Below the pieces are notes generated by a model. It worked only from the letters and a program-made list of their open reading frames with translations. It ran no database searches and was not told the origin of the DNA. From Fimbriimonadaceae bacterium (GTDB lineage: Bacteria; Armatimonadota; Fimbriimonadia; Fimbriimonadales; Fimbriimonadaceae): 32,199 nucleotides of DNA. The stretch is from positions 1 through 32,199 of the forward strand of contig JAPUDU010000001.1 in the NCBI GenBank assembly GCA_027492935.1, read 5' to 3'. The translations under genes and the position numbers were made by a program. Positions 6,865-13,782 of the stretch are shown in pieces (positions within the stretch are counted from its first letter, which is position 1; each line of letters starts with the position of its first letter).

Positions 6865-7661
6865 TCTCTATCCCCCGTGATGGGCTTTTGGTAATAAAAC
6901 GGCTTGGCCGTTTTAAAACCGATCTCTTCCGATCGGGAAATCCGTTCGGTGCTTCCTACAAAGAGGATGCCTCCCGGTTTTAATGATCGGAAAAACTTTT
7001 CGTACAACTCATCTTTTGCCTGTTCTGTGAAATAAATCACAACATTTCGACACATGATGAGGTCAAAACCGGTGTCAAACCGGTCGCCCAGAAGGTTGCA
7101 CTTCTGGAATGATAGGTATTTTCGGAGCTTAGTATCGGCGACAAATTCGTCCCCTTCGCTCTTTAAGTAATTTTTGTATTCGGCCGGGATACATCGGATA
7201 TCGTTCTTGCTAAATCGTCCCGATTTGGCTTGATTGAGGGCCGCGGTGTCGATATCTGAGCCGATGATTCGATGATTTCCGGCAAATTTTTTATCCAAGA
7301 TCATCGCGAGAGTGTGGGCTTCTGCACCGTAGCTACAACCCGCACTCCAGATTTTCAAATTTGTGTTTTTGTCGAGGAGATTAGGGAGAATTTCCTTTTC
7401 CATTTCCATCCATTTTTCAGGATTGCGGAACAGCTCGCTGACATTGATTGCCAGGCGGTCTAGGAACCACTCAGTATTTGCGGGCGACTTTGCTAACCAA
7501 CTTGAAAACTCGTCGAGGCTTGAACAAGATTGCTGAGCAACCATGGAGATGATTCGCCGTTGAAGCTGGTTGGCTTTGTATAGAGAGAGGTCAAGGCCAG
7601 TTTTGCGCTTGAAGAGCGCGTAAAACTCTTGCCACTCGGTGGGCTTAGGAAGCACGCGCAA
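6846..7661 (-). CDS. cheR: CheR chemoreceptor methyltransferase
   Basis: A 271-residue SAM-dependent methyltransferase that methylates receptor glutamates. It has the N-terminal helical CheR domain, NVSELFRNPE (73-82), and the SAM-binding motif IWSAGCSYGAEAHTLAM (104-120). Many CheR proteins read STGEEPY at this last site, so this is the SYGAEAH variant. FDLIMCRNVVIYF follows in the second half. It overlaps cheB by 17 bp upstream and cheY by 19 bp downstream, indicating tight coupling. No TPR domain or receptor-binding tail is visible. Confidence 0.92.
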   Translation of the reverse strand: MRVLPKPTEWQEFYALFKRKTGLDLSLYKANQLQRRIISMVAQQSCSSLDEFSSWLAKSPANTEWFLDRLAINVSELFRNPEKWMEMEKEILPNLLDKNTNLKIWSAGCSYGAEAHTLAMILDKKFAGNHRIIGSDIDTAALNQAKSGRFSKNDIRCIPAEYKNYLKSEGDEFVADTKLRKYLSFQKCNLLGDRFDTGFDLIMCRNVVIYFTEQAKDELYEKFFRSLKPGGILFVGSTERISRSEEIGFKTAKPFYYQKPITGDREWRNAS

Positions 7662-8676
7662 CCCTCCCAGTTAGATTCGCAACAATTGCTGCGGCCATTT
7701 CATTTAATTCAAATTCCATTGTTATTCCACCGGCTTCCTTGGCGGCTTTTGGCATGCCGTAGATGACACAACTTGATTCGGCTTCACCGAGAACGGTGGC
7801 ACCCGCTTTCTTTAGCGCGACCGCTCCAGCGGCTCCATCGCGACCCATCCCAGTCAAGACCACGCCAAGAGCGCGTGAACCGAGATACTTCGCGCCCGAT
7901 TCAAAGAGGTAATCAGCGGCTGGTTTGACCCCGTGGATTTTTGCATCATCAGTCATTCGCAAGTGGAGTTGAGAATCAAGGATGATGTGTTGTCCGGCGG
8001 GAGCGATATAAGCCTGACCTGGAATCAATGGATCGCCGTTGAATGCTTCACGGCATGGCACCGTGCCAGCAGAATCTAATCGTTTTGCAAGCGAGGCAGT
8101 AAAGCCAGGTGGCATATGCTGAACGATAACGATTGGGGCGGGAAATCCTACAGGTAAAGCTTCCCACAGAGTGCGCAATGTTGATGGTCCGCCAGTTGAA
8201 CTGGCGATCAAAACAACCCGATCCGTCTTTCCTTTCGGTCGACTTACGGGGATTGCGATTGGCTTGGGATCGGTATTTTGGATGTAACGAGCAGCTCGAA
8301 TTTTGTCGAGGGTTTCGTTTTTGCATTCAATGAACTTTAAACTGGTCGCGTTATTCGGCTTCGTTACGAAGTCGAATGCACCGACTTCGAGAGCTTGAAG
8401 GGTTGCGGTGGCGCCTTGTTGAGTAATGGAAGAAACCATCAATACTTTCGCGCCTGTTTTAAGCAGGTGGGGCAAGGCTTCTAGTCCTGACATTACCGGC
8501 ATTTCAACATCGAGGGTGACGAGATCTGGTCGATGCTCTTTAGCGAGGGCGACCCCCTCCTCTCCGTTTTTCCCGATTCCCACGACTTCCATATCGGGTT
8601 GTTCGCTGATCCAATCGATCAACATTCTCCGTACGAAGGGAGAGTCATCAACGACTACAATTCTTTGTTTTCTCAT
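7645..8676 (-). CDS. cheB: CheB protein-glutamate methylesterase/glutaminase
   Basis: A 343-residue response regulator with an N-terminal receiver (phospho-acceptor Asp56 in LVTLDVEMP) and a C-terminal methylesterase. The catalytic triad is visible as Ser160 (ASSTGGP), His187 (VQHMPPGFT) and Asp280 (TGMGRDGA). It would remove methyl groups from receptors when phosphorylated, opposing CheR. Its ATG overlaps the HDOD gene stop by 4 bp, and its own end overlaps cheR by 17 bp. Confidence 0.94.
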   Translation of the reverse strand: MRKQRIVVVDDSPFVRRMLIDWISEQPDMEVVGIGKNGEEGVALAKEHRPDLVTLDVEMPVMSGLEALPHLLKTGAKVLMVSSITQQGATATLQALEVGAFDFVTKPNNATSLKFIECKNETLDKIRAARYIQNTDPKPIAIPVSRPKGKTDRVVLIASSTGGPSTLRTLWEALPVGFPAPIVIVQHMPPGFTASLAKRLDSAGTVPCREAFNGDPLIPGQAYIAPAGQHIILDSQLHLRMTDDAKIHGVKPAADYLFESGAKYLGSRALGVVLTGMGRDGAAGAVALKKAGATVLGEAESSCVIYGMPKAAKEAGGITMEFELNEMAAAIVANLTGRVARAS

Positions 8677-9536
8677 GCTGCCATCTCCGTAAAGAGGGTT
8701 TCATATTCTTCAAATTTTTCTACAAACTCGTCAGTTACAGCATCGACTTGGTTGGTTGTGATTCCCAAACGGTCGAGGCTCGTTTCATCAAATCGGTACA
8801 ACATTCCATCACCGCCAAGTCCAAAACCCATTGCCGAGCAAATGTAGTCGCCGACATGCACACAATCGACAATTCCGTGATGCACTGTTGCTTGAGCAGG
8901 GTTGTGGTGATGAAGGGCAGCTTCGCAAAGTTCTTCGGGGAGATTCCAGTTGGTTGCCAGGTGATAACCGACTTGGCAGTGGTCGTATCCGAGAACTCGG
9001 CGCTCCGCTTCATCAAATGAAATCTCTTCGCGCCCCGCGTAGAGGAGGATCGCACCCATTTTGTTTTCTATCCAAACACTGAGAGCGACTTTGCCAAGAT
9101 CGTGCAGAAGTCCAGCGGTAAATGCGACGTCTTCACTTGCTTTTCCGCTTACGCGAGCGATTATTTGACTTGCTACAGCCGTTCCGAAGGCGTGTCTCCA
9201 CATTTCTTCGGGTCCAAGGCAATAACCTGTTACGGGTCGTTGCATCCATGGGTAAGTTCCGGCGACAAGAGCAAGATTCTTGACTGACTTCATACCAAGA
9301 ACAACGACAGCCTCGGGCAGATCGACAATTCTCCGGCTAAGACCGTAATATGCACTGTTGGCAAGACGCAGAACGCGAGCACTCAACGCTTGATCAGTAA
9401 CGATGATTTTTGCAACTGAGGCAGCACTTGAGCTTGACGATTGCGTTTCCCGCATGACCTTGATAGCCGCAGCAGGGATGGTTGGCAAATCTGTCGTTTT
9501 TGCGACGATTTGCTCGATTGTGATTGTGTGGCTCAT
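8673..9536 (-). CDS. HDOD domain protein
   Basis: A 287-residue protein with an HDOD domain, a relative of HD phosphohydrolases that is usually regulatory. The N-terminal half has LPTIPAAAIKVMRE and LSARVLRLANSAYYGLSRRI, and the HD-like core is FTAGLLHDLGKVAL. The HD pair is retained, but other metal ligands cannot be judged without alignment. It is embedded between cheD and cheB with 4-bp overlaps on both sides. HDOD proteins beside chemotaxis genes are often signalling outputs or cyclic-di-GMP-linked regulators; the exact role is unknown. Confidence 0.9.
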   Translation of the reverse strand: MSHTITIEQIVAKTTDLPTIPAAAIKVMRETQSSSSSAASVAKIIVTDQALSARVLRLANSAYYGLSRRIVDLPEAVVVLGMKSVKNLALVAGTYPWMQRPVTGYCLGPEEMWRHAFGTAVASQIIARVSGKASEDVAFTAGLLHDLGKVALSVWIENKMGAILLYAGREEISFDEAERRVLGYDHCQVGYHLATNWNLPEELCEAALHHHNPAQATVHHGIVDCVHVGDYICSAMGFGLGGDGMLYRFDETSLDRLGITTNQVDAVTDEFVEKFEEYETLFTEMAA

Positions 9537-10063
9537 GCCGCTAACCTCTTTGCAGATCGTTTAAGGCTACAAATCGTTTTTTCACCGCTGTGGACGGTTC
9601 TCACTTTTACTTCACCGTCTTCGGCGTTGACTATAACGGTTCGGCCACTTGATCCCCCAATGTCGTACGCGAGAACCCGCGCGCCGAGAGATTTAAGAAT
9701 TTTTGTTACAGCATCGCCGTTTCTAGCTCCGACATCGAGTCGAGAGCTACTGTCTGATCCGAATTTAAAAACTTGAGCTCCGCCGGCGTAGGCCATGATC
9801 ATGCGACTCTTAGAGGCCCCTAGTTTCTCCATCTGACTTAACAATTCAGGAATTCCGGTGTCGGCGAACTTCCCTGGTTTGTCCACAGGTTTATCCTTGA
9901 ATGCTTCTGGCAGCATGATGTGAATCATTCCGCATACATCTGCTTGCTCATCAATTGCGACAAGGCCAATACATGAACCCAGACCCAAGCAAGTGAATAT
10001 TGCTGGCCCTTTTGCGACTTTTATTTCGGACATACCGACAAGAAGTTGATTTCCTACCGGCAC
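9533..10063 (-). CDS. cheD: CheD chemoreceptor glutamine deamidase
   Basis: A 176-residue CheD, which deamidates receptor glutamines and is inhibited by binding CheC. The catalytic Cys is Cys31 in LGLGSCIGL and the catalytic His is His48 in GMIHIMLP, 17 residues later as in Thermotoga maritima CheD. The T. maritima catalytic Thr sits six residues before the Cys. That position is Cys25 here, with Thr24 one residue earlier, so the third active-site residue is altered or shifted. It lies 2 bp after cheC and overlaps the HDOD gene by 4 bp. Confidence 0.92.
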   Translation of the reverse strand: MPVGNQLLVGMSEIKVAKGPAIFTCLGLGSCIGLVAIDEQADVCGMIHIMLPEAFKDKPVDKPGKFADTGIPELLSQMEKLGASKSRMIMAYAGGAQVFKFGSDSSSRLDVGARNGDAVTKILKSLGARVLAYDIGGSSGRTVIVNAEDGEVKVRTVHSGEKTICSLKRSAKRLAA

Positions 10064-10065
10064 AG

Positions 10066-10695
10066 TTAGGCAGCCTCCGGAATACCGAGTGCATTGAACA
10101 GTTTTTTCAGGCCACCCATGGTGGGTACGCAGAGGAAGTAGCCCGTTGTATCTAAATCATCAAGCCCGTAGAGACGGGTTTCGAGAGCGAGGGCAACGGC
10201 ATCTTCCATCTCAGCTTCGGCAACAATGGATGCGGCAATTGTATAAACGATATCCACCGAAACCATAGGGGGTGTTGCGTGCAGTTTAAGTCCGGACATA
10301 TCGGAAATCGCATTGAGGAAACTGGAAGAGACGATGTTGCCGATTTCAAGCATCGCGGAAGCACTTAGCTCATCAATTTCTTCAGGGCTTTCTGGGGCAT
10401 AGCCAATGAGCATTCGCCAGAGGTTTTGAGCACTTGCCCACGGAAAAATGAAAGCGGTGTGACCATTAATATCCCCGCTGATTGGCATACAAATGCCGAC
10501 AGCCATTTCTTCAGGGTCACCAAACATTAGCGGAACACGTTCGAAAGCCACCGTTTCAACGTTCGGGATTTCCATGTTGAAGGCTTTGCCTGTTACTGTA
10601 GCCAAGGCAGTAGTTGAATGCCCTAACCCTATATTTGCCATTTCTCGAATGGCAGACATTTCCATTAGTCCAAAATTTTGTTGACCACTGTCCAT
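10066..10695 (-). CDS. cheC: CheC CheY-P phosphatase
   Basis: A 209-residue CheC with two phosphatase helices: IREMANIGLGHS (Glu18/Asn21) and AMLEIGNIVSSS (Glu117/Asn120). Both ExxN pairs are intact, so both sites should be active. CheC dephosphorylates CheY and binds CheD, and cheD follows immediately. It is the first gene of the adaptation operon. A GAGG ribosome-binding site lies 5 nt before the ATG. No convincing promoter is seen directly upstream. Confidence 0.92.
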   Translation of the reverse strand: MDSGQQNFGLMEMSAIREMANIGLGHSTTALATVTGKAFNMEIPNVETVAFERVPLMFGDPEEMAVGICMPISGDINGHTAFIFPWASAQNLWRMLIGYAPESPEEIDELSASAMLEIGNIVSSSFLNAISDMSGLKLHATPPMVSVDIVYTIAASIVAEAEMEDAVALALETRLYGLDDLDTTGYFLCVPTMGGLKKLFNALGIPEAA

Positions 10696-11047: not shown

Positions 11048-11446
11048 ATGAAGCCGCTCGATTCTGAATCAATCCGAAAAGCCCTTACCTCGGCACGAGA
11101 TGGTGGCTTTCGAAGCATTAAGCTTCGGGCGGGTGATTCTGTTTTTCAAGCCACTCTCAGTGAAGAGGCTCTTTCTTGGGGTGATACTTGGTCAGAAGGC
11201 GAAGAGATTTCGGCTGGCCCGACGGTTGAGGCAGTCTGTTCACCAGTCGTTGGATACGTTAAATGGTTACCCGATATAGTGAAAGTCGGCACCGAAGTCA
11301 AAAATGGTCAAACGATTGGAGAAGTCCTTGCTTTAGGAATTTCAAACGAAATTGTTGTTAATTGCACAGGGAAAATTGTTAAAGTAAACGTAGAAGATGG
11401 GGCTCCGGTTGAATTTGGCAAGAACCTGTTGGAGGTCGAAGTTTGA
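11048..11446 (+). CDS. AccB-like (BCCP-like) protein lacking the biotinyl lysine
   Basis: A 132-residue homologue of the biotin carboxyl carrier protein of acetyl-CoA carboxylase. The C-terminal hammerhead domain is clear (PVVGYVKWLPDIVKVGTEVKNGQTIGEV...ISNEIVVNCTGKIVKVNVEDG). At the biotinylation loop, where BCCPs read AMKxMNEI, this protein reads ALGISNEI: the acceptor Lys is Gly97 (codon GGA, 11336-11338) and both flanking Met residues are changed. It cannot be biotinylated there. This resembles plant BADC proteins, biotin-less BCCP homologues that restrain acetyl-CoA carboxylase. I use the ATG at 11048; an in-frame ATG at 11000 would add 16 residues. No clear Shine-Dalgarno sequence precedes either. 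Confidence 0.82.
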   Translation: MKPLDSESIRKALTSARDGGFRSIKLRAGDSVFQATLSEEALSWGDTWSEGEEISAGPTVEAVCSPVVGYVKWLPDIVKVGTEVKNGQTIGEVLALGISNEIVVNCTGKIVKVNVEDGAPVEFGKNLLEVEV

Positions 11447-11823
11447 TGGATAGAACTCGCGGGAATAGCTTGGTCGGCATATTGGTTGCCGTAGCGGTTC
11501 TGATTCTGGCCGTACTCTTTTTTACAACAGGCGGAAAGTTTATGGGAGGTCAGGCGGCTGAACGAGCCGATGGCAAAGGTGAAACGATCATCGGGAAAGG
11601 CATTTACCGGGGGAAGGATGCAACCTGCATGAGCAATATTCAACAGCTTCGTGGAGCGATTTCCATTGCGACTGATCAAGTGGAAAATACTTTCCCACAA
11701 GAACTAGAAGAAACAAAGATAGGAGCTCAGTTCTACTCTTGCCCTGTTGGTGGTGAGCGGTACGAGTACGATCCTACAACTGGCACGGTTAAATGCCCGC
11801 ACAAAGGACACGAAAAGTACTGA
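11446..11823 (+). CDS. Pilin-like protein (atypical prepilin signal, C-terminal Cys motif)
   Basis: A 125-residue protein starting MDRTRGNSLVGILVAVAVLI, a short basic leader ending in Gly followed by a hydrophobic helix as in prepilins. The usual Glu at mature position 5 is Gly. The C-terminal part has CMSNIQQLRGAIS, then CPVGGERYEYDPTTGTVKCP ending in HKGHEKY, a pattern like the C-terminal Cys region of ComGC-like and pseudopilin-like proteins. It overlaps the AccB-like stop by one base (TGATG) and the accC start in the same way. GGAGG lies 10 nt upstream. A pilin-like gene inside an acetyl-CoA carboxylase operon is unexpected. Confidence 0.78.
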   Translation: MDRTRGNSLVGILVAVAVLILAVLFFTTGGKFMGGQAAERADGKGETIIGKGIYRGKDATCMSNIQQLRGAISIATDQVENTFPQELEETKIGAQFYSCPVGGERYEYDPTTGTVKCPHKGHEKY

Positions 11824-13184
11824 TGTTCAAACGAATTTTAATTGCGAACCGAGGCGAGATTGCCTGTCGAGTTATTCGTGCTTGCCATGAACTCGGAATT
11901 GAAGCGATTTCGGTTTACAGCCAAGCGGATAAGGATTCGCGGCATGTTGATATGGCGGATGAAGCGATTTGCATTGGCGCAGGAACAAATACTGAGAGCT
12001 ATTTGAACTTGGCCAATGTTCTTTCTGCGTGTGAAATCACGGGAGCCGAAGCTGTCCACCCAGGTTTTGGTTACTTTAGCGAGCGCCCAAGTTTTGCTGA
12101 GGCACTGGCTTCAATGGGAATCAAGTTTATTGGCCCCTCGGTTCCAGCAATTGAATCGATGGGTGACAAAGCGAAAGCGAAAGAAGCGGCAATAAAAGCG
12201 GAATGTCCGGTTGTTCCGGGTTCGACCGGGCCAGTACCGACCGAACAGGATGCGATGGAGTGGGCTGAGAAGATTGGCTATCCTGTGCTTCTTAAGGCAG
12301 TAGCGGGTGGCGGTGGACGCGGGATTCGCCGCGTGGATTCTAAGGAAGAACTTTCCCATGCCTTTAAGACAGCTCAGGCTGAGGCTCAAGCTAGTTTTGG
12401 TAACGGGGACATGTTGGTTGAAAAATGTGTTATTCGACCGCGACACGTTGAAATTCAGATTCTCGGTGATGAGCACGGAAACGTGCTCCATATCGGTGAG
12501 CGTGAATGCTCAGTTCAAAATTTGCGCCATCAGAAGATTGTTGAAGAAGCACCATGCGTTGTTTTGACTCAAGATTTGCGAGATCGAATGGGAGCAGCGG
12601 CAGTCCGTGTGGCTAAAGAAGTTGGTTATTCTAACGCGGGCACAGTTGAATTCTTGCTCGACGCTTCGGGCGAGTTTTACTTCCTTGAAATGAACACTCG
12701 AATCCAAGTAGAGCACCCGGTTACAGAAATGGTCAGTGGCTTGGATCTTGTTCAATGGCAGATTCGAATCGCGGCGGGTGAGAAGTTGCCCATGACTCAA
12801 AGTGACATTCAGCTTAAAGGCCACTCAATTGAGGCACGAATAACTTCGCAAGACCCGGACAAAGATTTTGCTCCTTGCACAGGGAAAATTGCTCGATGGG
12901 ATCCGCCAGGATTCCGAGGTGTACGGCTAGATACCCACGTTTATGCTGGCTTCACAGTTTCCCCATACTACGACCCGATGATCGCCAAGTTGATTGTTAC
13001 GGCAGAAACTCGTGAGCTCGCCGTTCGGCGACTGCAGGTAGCACTTGATGAATTCAATGTCGAGGGGATTCAGACCAATATTCCGTTTCTTCGACGCCTC
13101 GTTCGGCATCAGCGATATGTGACGGGCGATGTGAGCACGGCCTTTGTTGGTGAGTTCCTTCAAGAGGCTTCTGCGCATGTCTGA
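11823..13184 (+). CDS. accC: Biotin carboxylase subunit of acetyl-CoA carboxylase
   Basis: A 453-residue ATP-grasp biotin carboxylase that carboxylates BCCP-bound biotin, the first step of fatty-acid synthesis. Visible motifs are FKRILIANRGEIACRVIRAC at the N-terminus, HPGFGYFSE, the glycine-rich ATP loop AGGGGRGIR, IGERECSVQNLRHQKIVEEAP and the catalytic EMNTRIQVEHPVTEM. The SVQNLRHQK segment is one residue longer than SMQRRHQK of the E. coli enzyme. The ATG at 11823 overlaps the pilin-like stop (TGATG). The substrate carrier would have to be a genuine BCCP encoded elsewhere, because the AccB-like protein two genes upstream lacks the biotin site. Confidence 0.95.
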   Translation: MFKRILIANRGEIACRVIRACHELGIEAISVYSQADKDSRHVDMADEAICIGAGTNTESYLNLANVLSACEITGAEAVHPGFGYFSERPSFAEALASMGIKFIGPSVPAIESMGDKAKAKEAAIKAECPVVPGSTGPVPTEQDAMEWAEKIGYPVLLKAVAGGGGRGIRRVDSKEELSHAFKTAQAEAQASFGNGDMLVEKCVIRPRHVEIQILGDEHGNVLHIGERECSVQNLRHQKIVEEAPCVVLTQDLRDRMGAAAVRVAKEVGYSNAGTVEFLLDASGEFYFLEMNTRIQVEHPVTEMVSGLDLVQWQIRIAAGEKLPMTQSDIQLKGHSIEARITSQDPDKDFAPCTGKIARWDPPGFRGVRLDTHVYAGFTVSPYYDPMIAKLIVTAETRELAVRRLQVALDEFNVEGIQTNIPFLRRLVRHQRYVTGDVSTAFVGEFLQEASAHV

Positions 13185-13782
13185 AACTGCGCCGAGTAAT
13201 CAGAGCCATTCTCGCCGCCTTGCACGTGAAGTGGCTTTCCAAAGCCTCTACATGCAACGTGTCGGTAACCCTGATATGGAATCGGCAATTGCAGCGGCGA
13301 CTTCACGTCATGTGCTCTCAGGCGTAGCCACAGAGTTTGTCCGGACGATTGTCGAAGGGATTAACAAAACGTACGAGGAACTTGATGCGAAAATTGAGCC
13401 GCTCCTTGCTGGGGGTTGGACATTGGCGCGTATTGCTATTTCGGATTTGATCGTATTGCAGATTGCCGCATACGAACTTTTTCACTTGGAAGATATGCCC
13501 CCCAAGGTCACAATTTCGCAAGCAGTTGAACTCGCCAAGCGATTTGGGACATCCGAGAGCGGAGCTTTTGTGAATGGCGTACTTGGTAACTTGCTTCTTC
13601 AATCCCCTAAAGCAGACTGGGAGGCACCTATTTTGGTTGACCCTGAGCCAGAGGAAGATAATGTCATCGTTTTGCATGACCCGGATGAAGAAAAGCCCGA
13701 AGAAGAGAGCCAAGAAGTAGTCGTGGGAAGTTGGGTCATCAAAAACGAAACTGAAGAGCCAGCAGAAGATGAGCCTATTTGA
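13177..13782 (+). CDS. nusB: Transcription antitermination protein NusB with acidic C-terminal tail
   Basis: A 201-residue protein with an N-terminal NusB fold: SRRLAREVAFQSLYMQ, GGWTLARIAISDLIVLQIAAYEL, and PPKVTISQAVELAKRFGTSESGAFVNGVLGNLL. NusB works with NusE (S10) in rRNA antitermination. Typical NusB is 130-150 residues; here about 55 further residues follow, very rich in Glu and Asp (for example DPEPEEDN and DEEKPEEESQE). The start at 13177 lies within the accC end (8-bp overlap), giving MSETAPSNQSHSRR. It overlaps rarA by 14 bp. Confidence 0.92.
   Translation: MSETAPSNQSHSRRLAREVAFQSLYMQRVGNPDMESAIAAATSRHVLSGVATEFVRTIVEGINKTYEELDAKIEPLLAGGWTLARIAISDLIVLQIAAYELFHLEDMPPKVTISQAVELAKRFGTSESGAFVNGVLGNLLLQSPKADWEAPILVDPEPEEDNVIVLHDPDEEKPEEESQEVVVGSWVIKNETEEPAEDEPI

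Follow-up and report, generated by a model that had tools for sequence, protein, structure and literature searches.

To our knowledge, non-catalytic paralogues of BCCP (AccB) are known from plants only. The plant BADC proteins (Arabidopsis BADC1-3) are BCCP homologues without a biotinylation motif that occur alongside functional BCCP. They share 25-30% identity with BCCP, have neither the AMKL motif nor its Lys, bind both biotin carboxylase (BC) and BCCP, promote assembly, and are proposed to cap the thumb side (PMC11926652). Inhibition by BADC through BC binding has been reported (PMC7712654); the authors of NMR work on the plant proteins find an inhibitory model inconsistent with their own data (PMC11926652). 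In E. coli BCCP, according to PMC11926652, which cites Broussard 2013, the BC-contacting face lies opposite the thumb.

Here we describe a bacterial AccB paralogue that carries no biotin-accepting Lys, and we refer to it as pseudo-BCCP. The small “glue” subunits of bacterial acyl-CoA carboxylases are epsilon-type proteins of a different enzyme class and are not BCCP homologues. Such subunits are cited in PMC11926652, and the pseudo-BCCP would resemble them as a small, non-catalytic protein that helps assemble a carboxylase. In plants, the carboxyltransferase is docked by membrane proteins called CTI (PMC7712654). The middle gene of the operon described below likewise encodes a small single-TM protein, which can be likened to CTI loosely and only through its gene position; it is pilin-like, whereas CTI is a coiled-coil protein. 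No description of a bacterial Lys-less BCCP was found in the literature searched, most subscription papers being outside it, and novelty is provisional.

The pseudo-BCCP gene and its operon

The gene lies in a stretch of 32,199 nucleotides (the window) from a Fimbriimonadaceae bacterium of the phylum Armatimonadota. The features of the locus are as follows:

11048..11446, + strand: pseudo-BCCP, AccB paralogue without the biotin Lys, 132 aa (translation and profile matches)
11048..11167, + strand: AccB-type N-terminal domain, residues 1-40; conserved, with A16 invariant and L13, G20, F33 and A35 nearly so
11168..11230, + strand: variable linker, residues 41-61; mean column entropy 3.3 bits vs 1.8 in the domain
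11231..11440, + strand: hammerhead (biotinyl-like) domain, residues 62-131, with a conserved VEYGQ-type strand
11255..11287, + strand: thumb region of BCCP, short by ∼5 residues relative to canonical AccB (alignment gap against the canonical copy L098 and other canonical copies)
11330..11353, + strand: former biotin hairpin ALGISNEI (translation and alignments)
11446..11823, + strand: middle gene, pilin/pseudopilin-like protein of 125 aa with a single TM segment and a prepilin signal that is degenerate here
11823..13184, + strand: accC, biotin carboxylase, 453 aa; TIGR00514 at 633 bits, above cut-off, with ATP-grasp and active-site motifs present
13177..13782, + strand: nusB, overlapping the end of accC by 8 nt; TIGR01951 at 112.6 bits, above cut-off

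Translation of 11048-11446 gives 132 residues, including ...GEVLALGISNEIVV..., and confirms the original prediction that the biotinylation motif reads ALGISNEI. The Lys is replaced by Gly97 (codon GGA at 11336-11338), and the Met residues on either side of it have become Leu and Ile. Homology to AccB extends over the full length, N-terminal domain included: a profile of the pseudo-BCCP family matched E. coli BCCP (4hr7_B) with an E value of 3.9e-20, aligning profile positions 4-134 to 4hr7_B residues 21-176. The protein is organized like AccB, its N-terminal domain being followed by a variable linker and then by a biotinyl-type hammerhead with VEFG as the final strand, and PF00364 matched it at 33 bits, above cut-off. 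The BCCP model TIGR00531 matched it with an E value of 7e-13 and 49.3 bits, below the equivalog cut-off of 115.2 bits, a cut-off that most canonical AccB copies of Armatimonadota also miss. The hammerhead, which had been predicted to be intact, is not fully so: its sequence is present, but in alignments ∼5 thumb residues of canonical AccB are absent. The pseudo-BCCP thus shares the domain plan and the gene place of bacterial AccB but differs from it in having no biotinylatable Lys and no thumb, in its profile score, and in belonging to a separate clade (SH-aLRT 97). An AlphaFold model of the protein, calculated from three alignment rows, reached a pLDDT of 36 and was too poor for use.

The usual bacterial gene order is accB-accC-nusB. 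In the window, pseudo-accB is followed by the pilin-like gene, accC, and nusB. The pseudo-BCCP gene occupies the position of accB and lies, as predicted, two genes from accC, with a single gene (11446-11823) in between. Both junctions are TGATG overlaps, one joining the pseudo-BCCP stop to the middle-gene ATG (11444-11448) and the other joining the middle-gene stop to the accC ATG (11821-11825). The order of pseudo-BCCP, pilin-like gene, and accC is conserved in relatives, and same-strand linkage to accC was found in 118/118 loci whose fetched stretch held both genes, which answers the question of whether operon position is kept. The middle gene is conserved in 120 cassette loci across most of Armatimonadota (homologues in L013-L170). 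No middle gene was found in families f3 and f30 or in part of f13; of these, f13 and f30 still carry an AccB-like copy beside accC. The prepilin motif PF07963 scores 31.7 bits in the middle-gene homologue of locus L146 and is degenerate in the window.

Searches near the operon found no regulatory RNA family, and promoter matches at the operon did not rise above chance. Upstream of it, on the minus strand (7645-10695), lies a divergent cluster encoding a CheB-like response regulator and HDOD-like, CheD-like, and CheC proteins; CheC was confirmed by Pfam, and the others were read from the sequence.

Canonical AccB and other carboxylase genes of the genome

A true AccB had been predicted to be encoded elsewhere, and a search of the genome’s contigs (a 3.1-Mb draft, 92% complete) located it: contig C176 carries a canonical, thumb-bearing AccB with the motif EAMKVFNEI. 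The pseudo-BCCP is therefore not the only BCCP of its genome, and a Lys-less homologue occurs together with a functional-looking BCCP, as in plants with BADC. A separate carrier with EAMKM on contig C307 adjoins an HMG-CoA-lyase-like gene, and the biotin protein ligase family has one match in the genome. The sole ACC-type accC is that of the window; a second biotin-carboxylase ORF of 516 aa scored below the accC cut-off. Because there is a single ACC-type accC, we infer that the AccC of the window, the pseudo-BCCP's neighbour, must also serve the canonical AccB. accD was not found in this genome, and accA is cut by a contig end, both of which we put down to draft assembly.

Including this one, canonical Lys-bearing AccB was read out in 54 genomes (30/30 in the phylum sample, 20/20 in the order sample, and 3 further drafts). 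It was not found in two cassette-holding draft genomes, G043 and G067. The accA of a closed relative was matched as two pieces in different frames (G086:C1:745535-746487), which suggests a frameshift or an assembly error.

Gly97 in the order and Lys loss across Armatimonadota

In the order, 108/113 genomes were matched, the best match in some being canonical AccB. The 89 order-wide cassette loci, closed genomes among them although most genomes compared are drafts, carry Gly at the former Lys site in 88 cases, Thr in 1, and Lys in 0. Within the window’s own family, Gly97 is invariant in 80/80 aligned members, as is the structural Gly69. Few segments are as well conserved as the former biotin hairpin (1.2 bits vs a domain mean of 1.84), which, after Lys loss, is kept as ALG[IL]xN[DE]. 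Between close pairs of Lys-less copies, dN/dS is 0.04-0.14, so that the gene is conserved and under selection. Within the genus, the pseudo-BCCP nevertheless diverges faster than its partners (65% identity, vs 73% for canonical AccB and 90% for AccC, in G086).

These results leave next to no probability for a local mutation, a sequencing error, or a decaying pseudogene, a reading that a single missing Lys codon in a draft genome might invite and that the relatives already refute. Error or chance is excluded by Gly in 80/80 family members and 88/89 order homologues, and the start, frame, and overlaps are intact with dN/dS far below 1, in keeping with the original view that this is not simply a decayed gene. 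Relatives that keep Lys had been named as a sign of such an artifact. None of the 89 order members keeps it, but some other families of the phylum do, which shows that Lys was lost by evolution and not by sequence error.

All Armatimonadota genomes searched (237/237) matched the profile, canonical copies counted in, and nearly every genome of the phylum has a copy adjacent to accC. Of the 40 cassette loci from outside the order, 23 retain Lys, typically as ESMKLMND, and in the other 17 it is replaced by G (7), R (4), D (2), N (1), H (1), T (1), or S (1). The Lys-bearing and Lys-less cassette copies represent one paralogue, since a single branch (SH-aLRT 97) separates the phylum's canonical AccB from all of them. 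On a tree of 57 AccC proteins, which by itself cannot separate Lys gain from loss, Lys status changes at least 7 times, with 6 changes forced by well-supported branches. We read the changes as losses because repeatedly regaining exactly this Lys is implausible. The sequences thus point to loss of Lys at least about six times in the phylum (to G, R, N, D, H, T, or S), and a single loss in the phylum ancestor was rejected on the 23/40 Lys-bearing loci and the at least 6 changes that the AccC tree needs. Where Lys is kept, the cassette copy may be a working second BCCP.

Two relatives of the same family (G068 and G069, with reduced genomes of 1.5 Mb) yielded neither AccB type nor an ACC-type accC, and their AccA- and AccD-like matches fall in one fused ORF; malonyl-CoA synthesis there may have been lost or taken over by another carboxylase. 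Three plasmid relatives, when read out, proved to carry ordinary Lys-bearing AccB. In the HQK loop of AccC (window 12520-12540), most Armatimonadota have one extra residue (QNLRHQK vs QRRHQK), and loci with QRRHQK or QRRNQK mostly also retain Lys in the cassette copy. The correlation is not clean, and we rejected the idea that the extra residue tracks Lys loss.

A broad sample outside the phylum was also covered; 41 of its genomes, picked because they gave either a second match or a high score, went through another search in which the matches were read out. Since these genomes were chosen by match, the counts give no prevalence. Seven families have a Lys-less AccB-like protein directly beside accC, with no pilin-like middle gene, and a canonical Lys-bearing AccB elsewhere (loci L268, L284, L247, L250, L252, L228, L240, and L241). 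The residue at the Lys site is G in f157, f58 (two genomes), f186, and f63; S in f149; D in f105; and E in f70. An Asn version occurs in f153, with no accC within the stretch fetched. Armatimonadota AccC forms one clade (99), apart from the AccC of these loci, which gives no support to a common origin of the Lys-less copies in Armatimonadota and in other phyla. Origin was judged on the AccC tree, the AccB tree being too short and long-branched to decide.

Proposed role of the pseudo-BCCP in the carboxylase

With no Lys, the pseudo-BCCP cannot carry CO2. We consider it probable that it is a non-catalytic AccB paralogue with a structural role, promoting assembly as one of the subunits of the biotin-carboxylase subcomplex. 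A fixed subunit of this kind is the simplest reading of a gene that is kept and coupled beside the only ACC-type accC and that is absent along with ACC in G068 and G069. Operon structure, conservation, and the BADC analogy suggest that the protein would physically bind AccC or AccB and affect activity. The missing thumb need not prevent BC binding, because the BC-contacting face of E. coli BCCP lies on the opposite side (PMC11926652, citing Broussard 2013).

In the scenario that we favor, accB would have been duplicated before the radiation of Armatimonadota. The biotin-carrying copy would have moved away, retaining Lys and thumb, and the copy remaining in front of accC would have lost the thumb and, repeatedly, the Lys. 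Co-translated with AccC, the pseudo-BCCP would join the biotin-carboxylase subcomplex and fill AccB positions without carrying CO2, and it may in this way set the biotinylated AccB content of the complex.

The first model proposed for plant BADC was an inhibitory decoy, and the same could be imagined here: the pseudo-BCCP would lower ACC activity by competing against biotinylated AccB for AccC, possibly with its Gly hairpin docked in the active site. This hairpin, the part that would reach into the BC active site, indeed stays highly conserved after Lys loss, which keeps this model alive, as does the inhibition via BC binding reported for plants. Nevertheless, we regard it as rather unlikely. 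Presence in essentially every ACC-bearing genome examined, together with TGATG coupling, is more what one would expect of a fixed subunit than of a tunable inhibitor; Gly at the tip of a β-turn can be a purely structural preference; and the plant NMR data, as their authors read them, speak against inhibition. Universality and co-translation thus favor assembly, although sequence cannot separate the two roles.

Two further possibilities take the protein away from complex assembly. In E. coli, AccB is reported to control accC operon expression through its N-terminal part, and a pseudo-BCCP that is the first gene of an accC-nusB operon and has a well-conserved AccB-type N-terminal domain might likewise sense free AccC or biotinylation state and act as an autogenous regulator. 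This is improbable, given that the hammerhead is conserved just as strongly and that the searches for regulatory RNAs and promoters gave nothing above chance. It is also distinctly improbable that the pseudo-BCCP has left ACC to serve another complex, for example with the pilin-like protein at the membrane. The conservation of a pilin- or pseudopilin-like middle gene in 120 cassette loci would suit such a role, but families f13 and f30 keep a copy beside accC where the middle gene was not found (in f13, in part), f3 likewise yielded no middle gene, and the Lys-less copies outside the phylum sit directly beside accC without it.

The assembly-subunit reading would make the pseudo-BCCP most likely a functional analogue of plant BADC that evolved independently. 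The differences are that it is bacterial, lies inside the accC operon, has a shortened thumb, and has lost Lys several times within its own lineage. Common descent with BADC is unlikely, and convergence is far more likely, because Lys status changed repeatedly inside Armatimonadota; the “bacterial counterpart” of the original prediction is thus to be read as convergent. A wider proposal, which we offer tentatively and with more doubt than conviction, is that Lys-less AccB paralogues are a widespread, unrecognized subunit of bacterial ACC that has arisen many times: after accB duplication, the copy beside accC would tend to lose both thumb and Lys and to turn into a subunit of the BADC type with a role in assembly or regulation. 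In Armatimonadota it would be joined by the pilin-like membrane protein, a possible anchor of the complex.

In plants, it is still argued whether BADC inhibits ACC or helps to assemble it (PMC11926652 and PMC7712654). A whole-phylum bacterial version in the accC operon, with sister families that keep the Lys, provides natural examples from both before and after the loss, as well as a simple recombinant system in which the question of inhibition vs assembly could be settled. It is also a warning for annotation, in that a gene adjoining accC need not be a functional accB.
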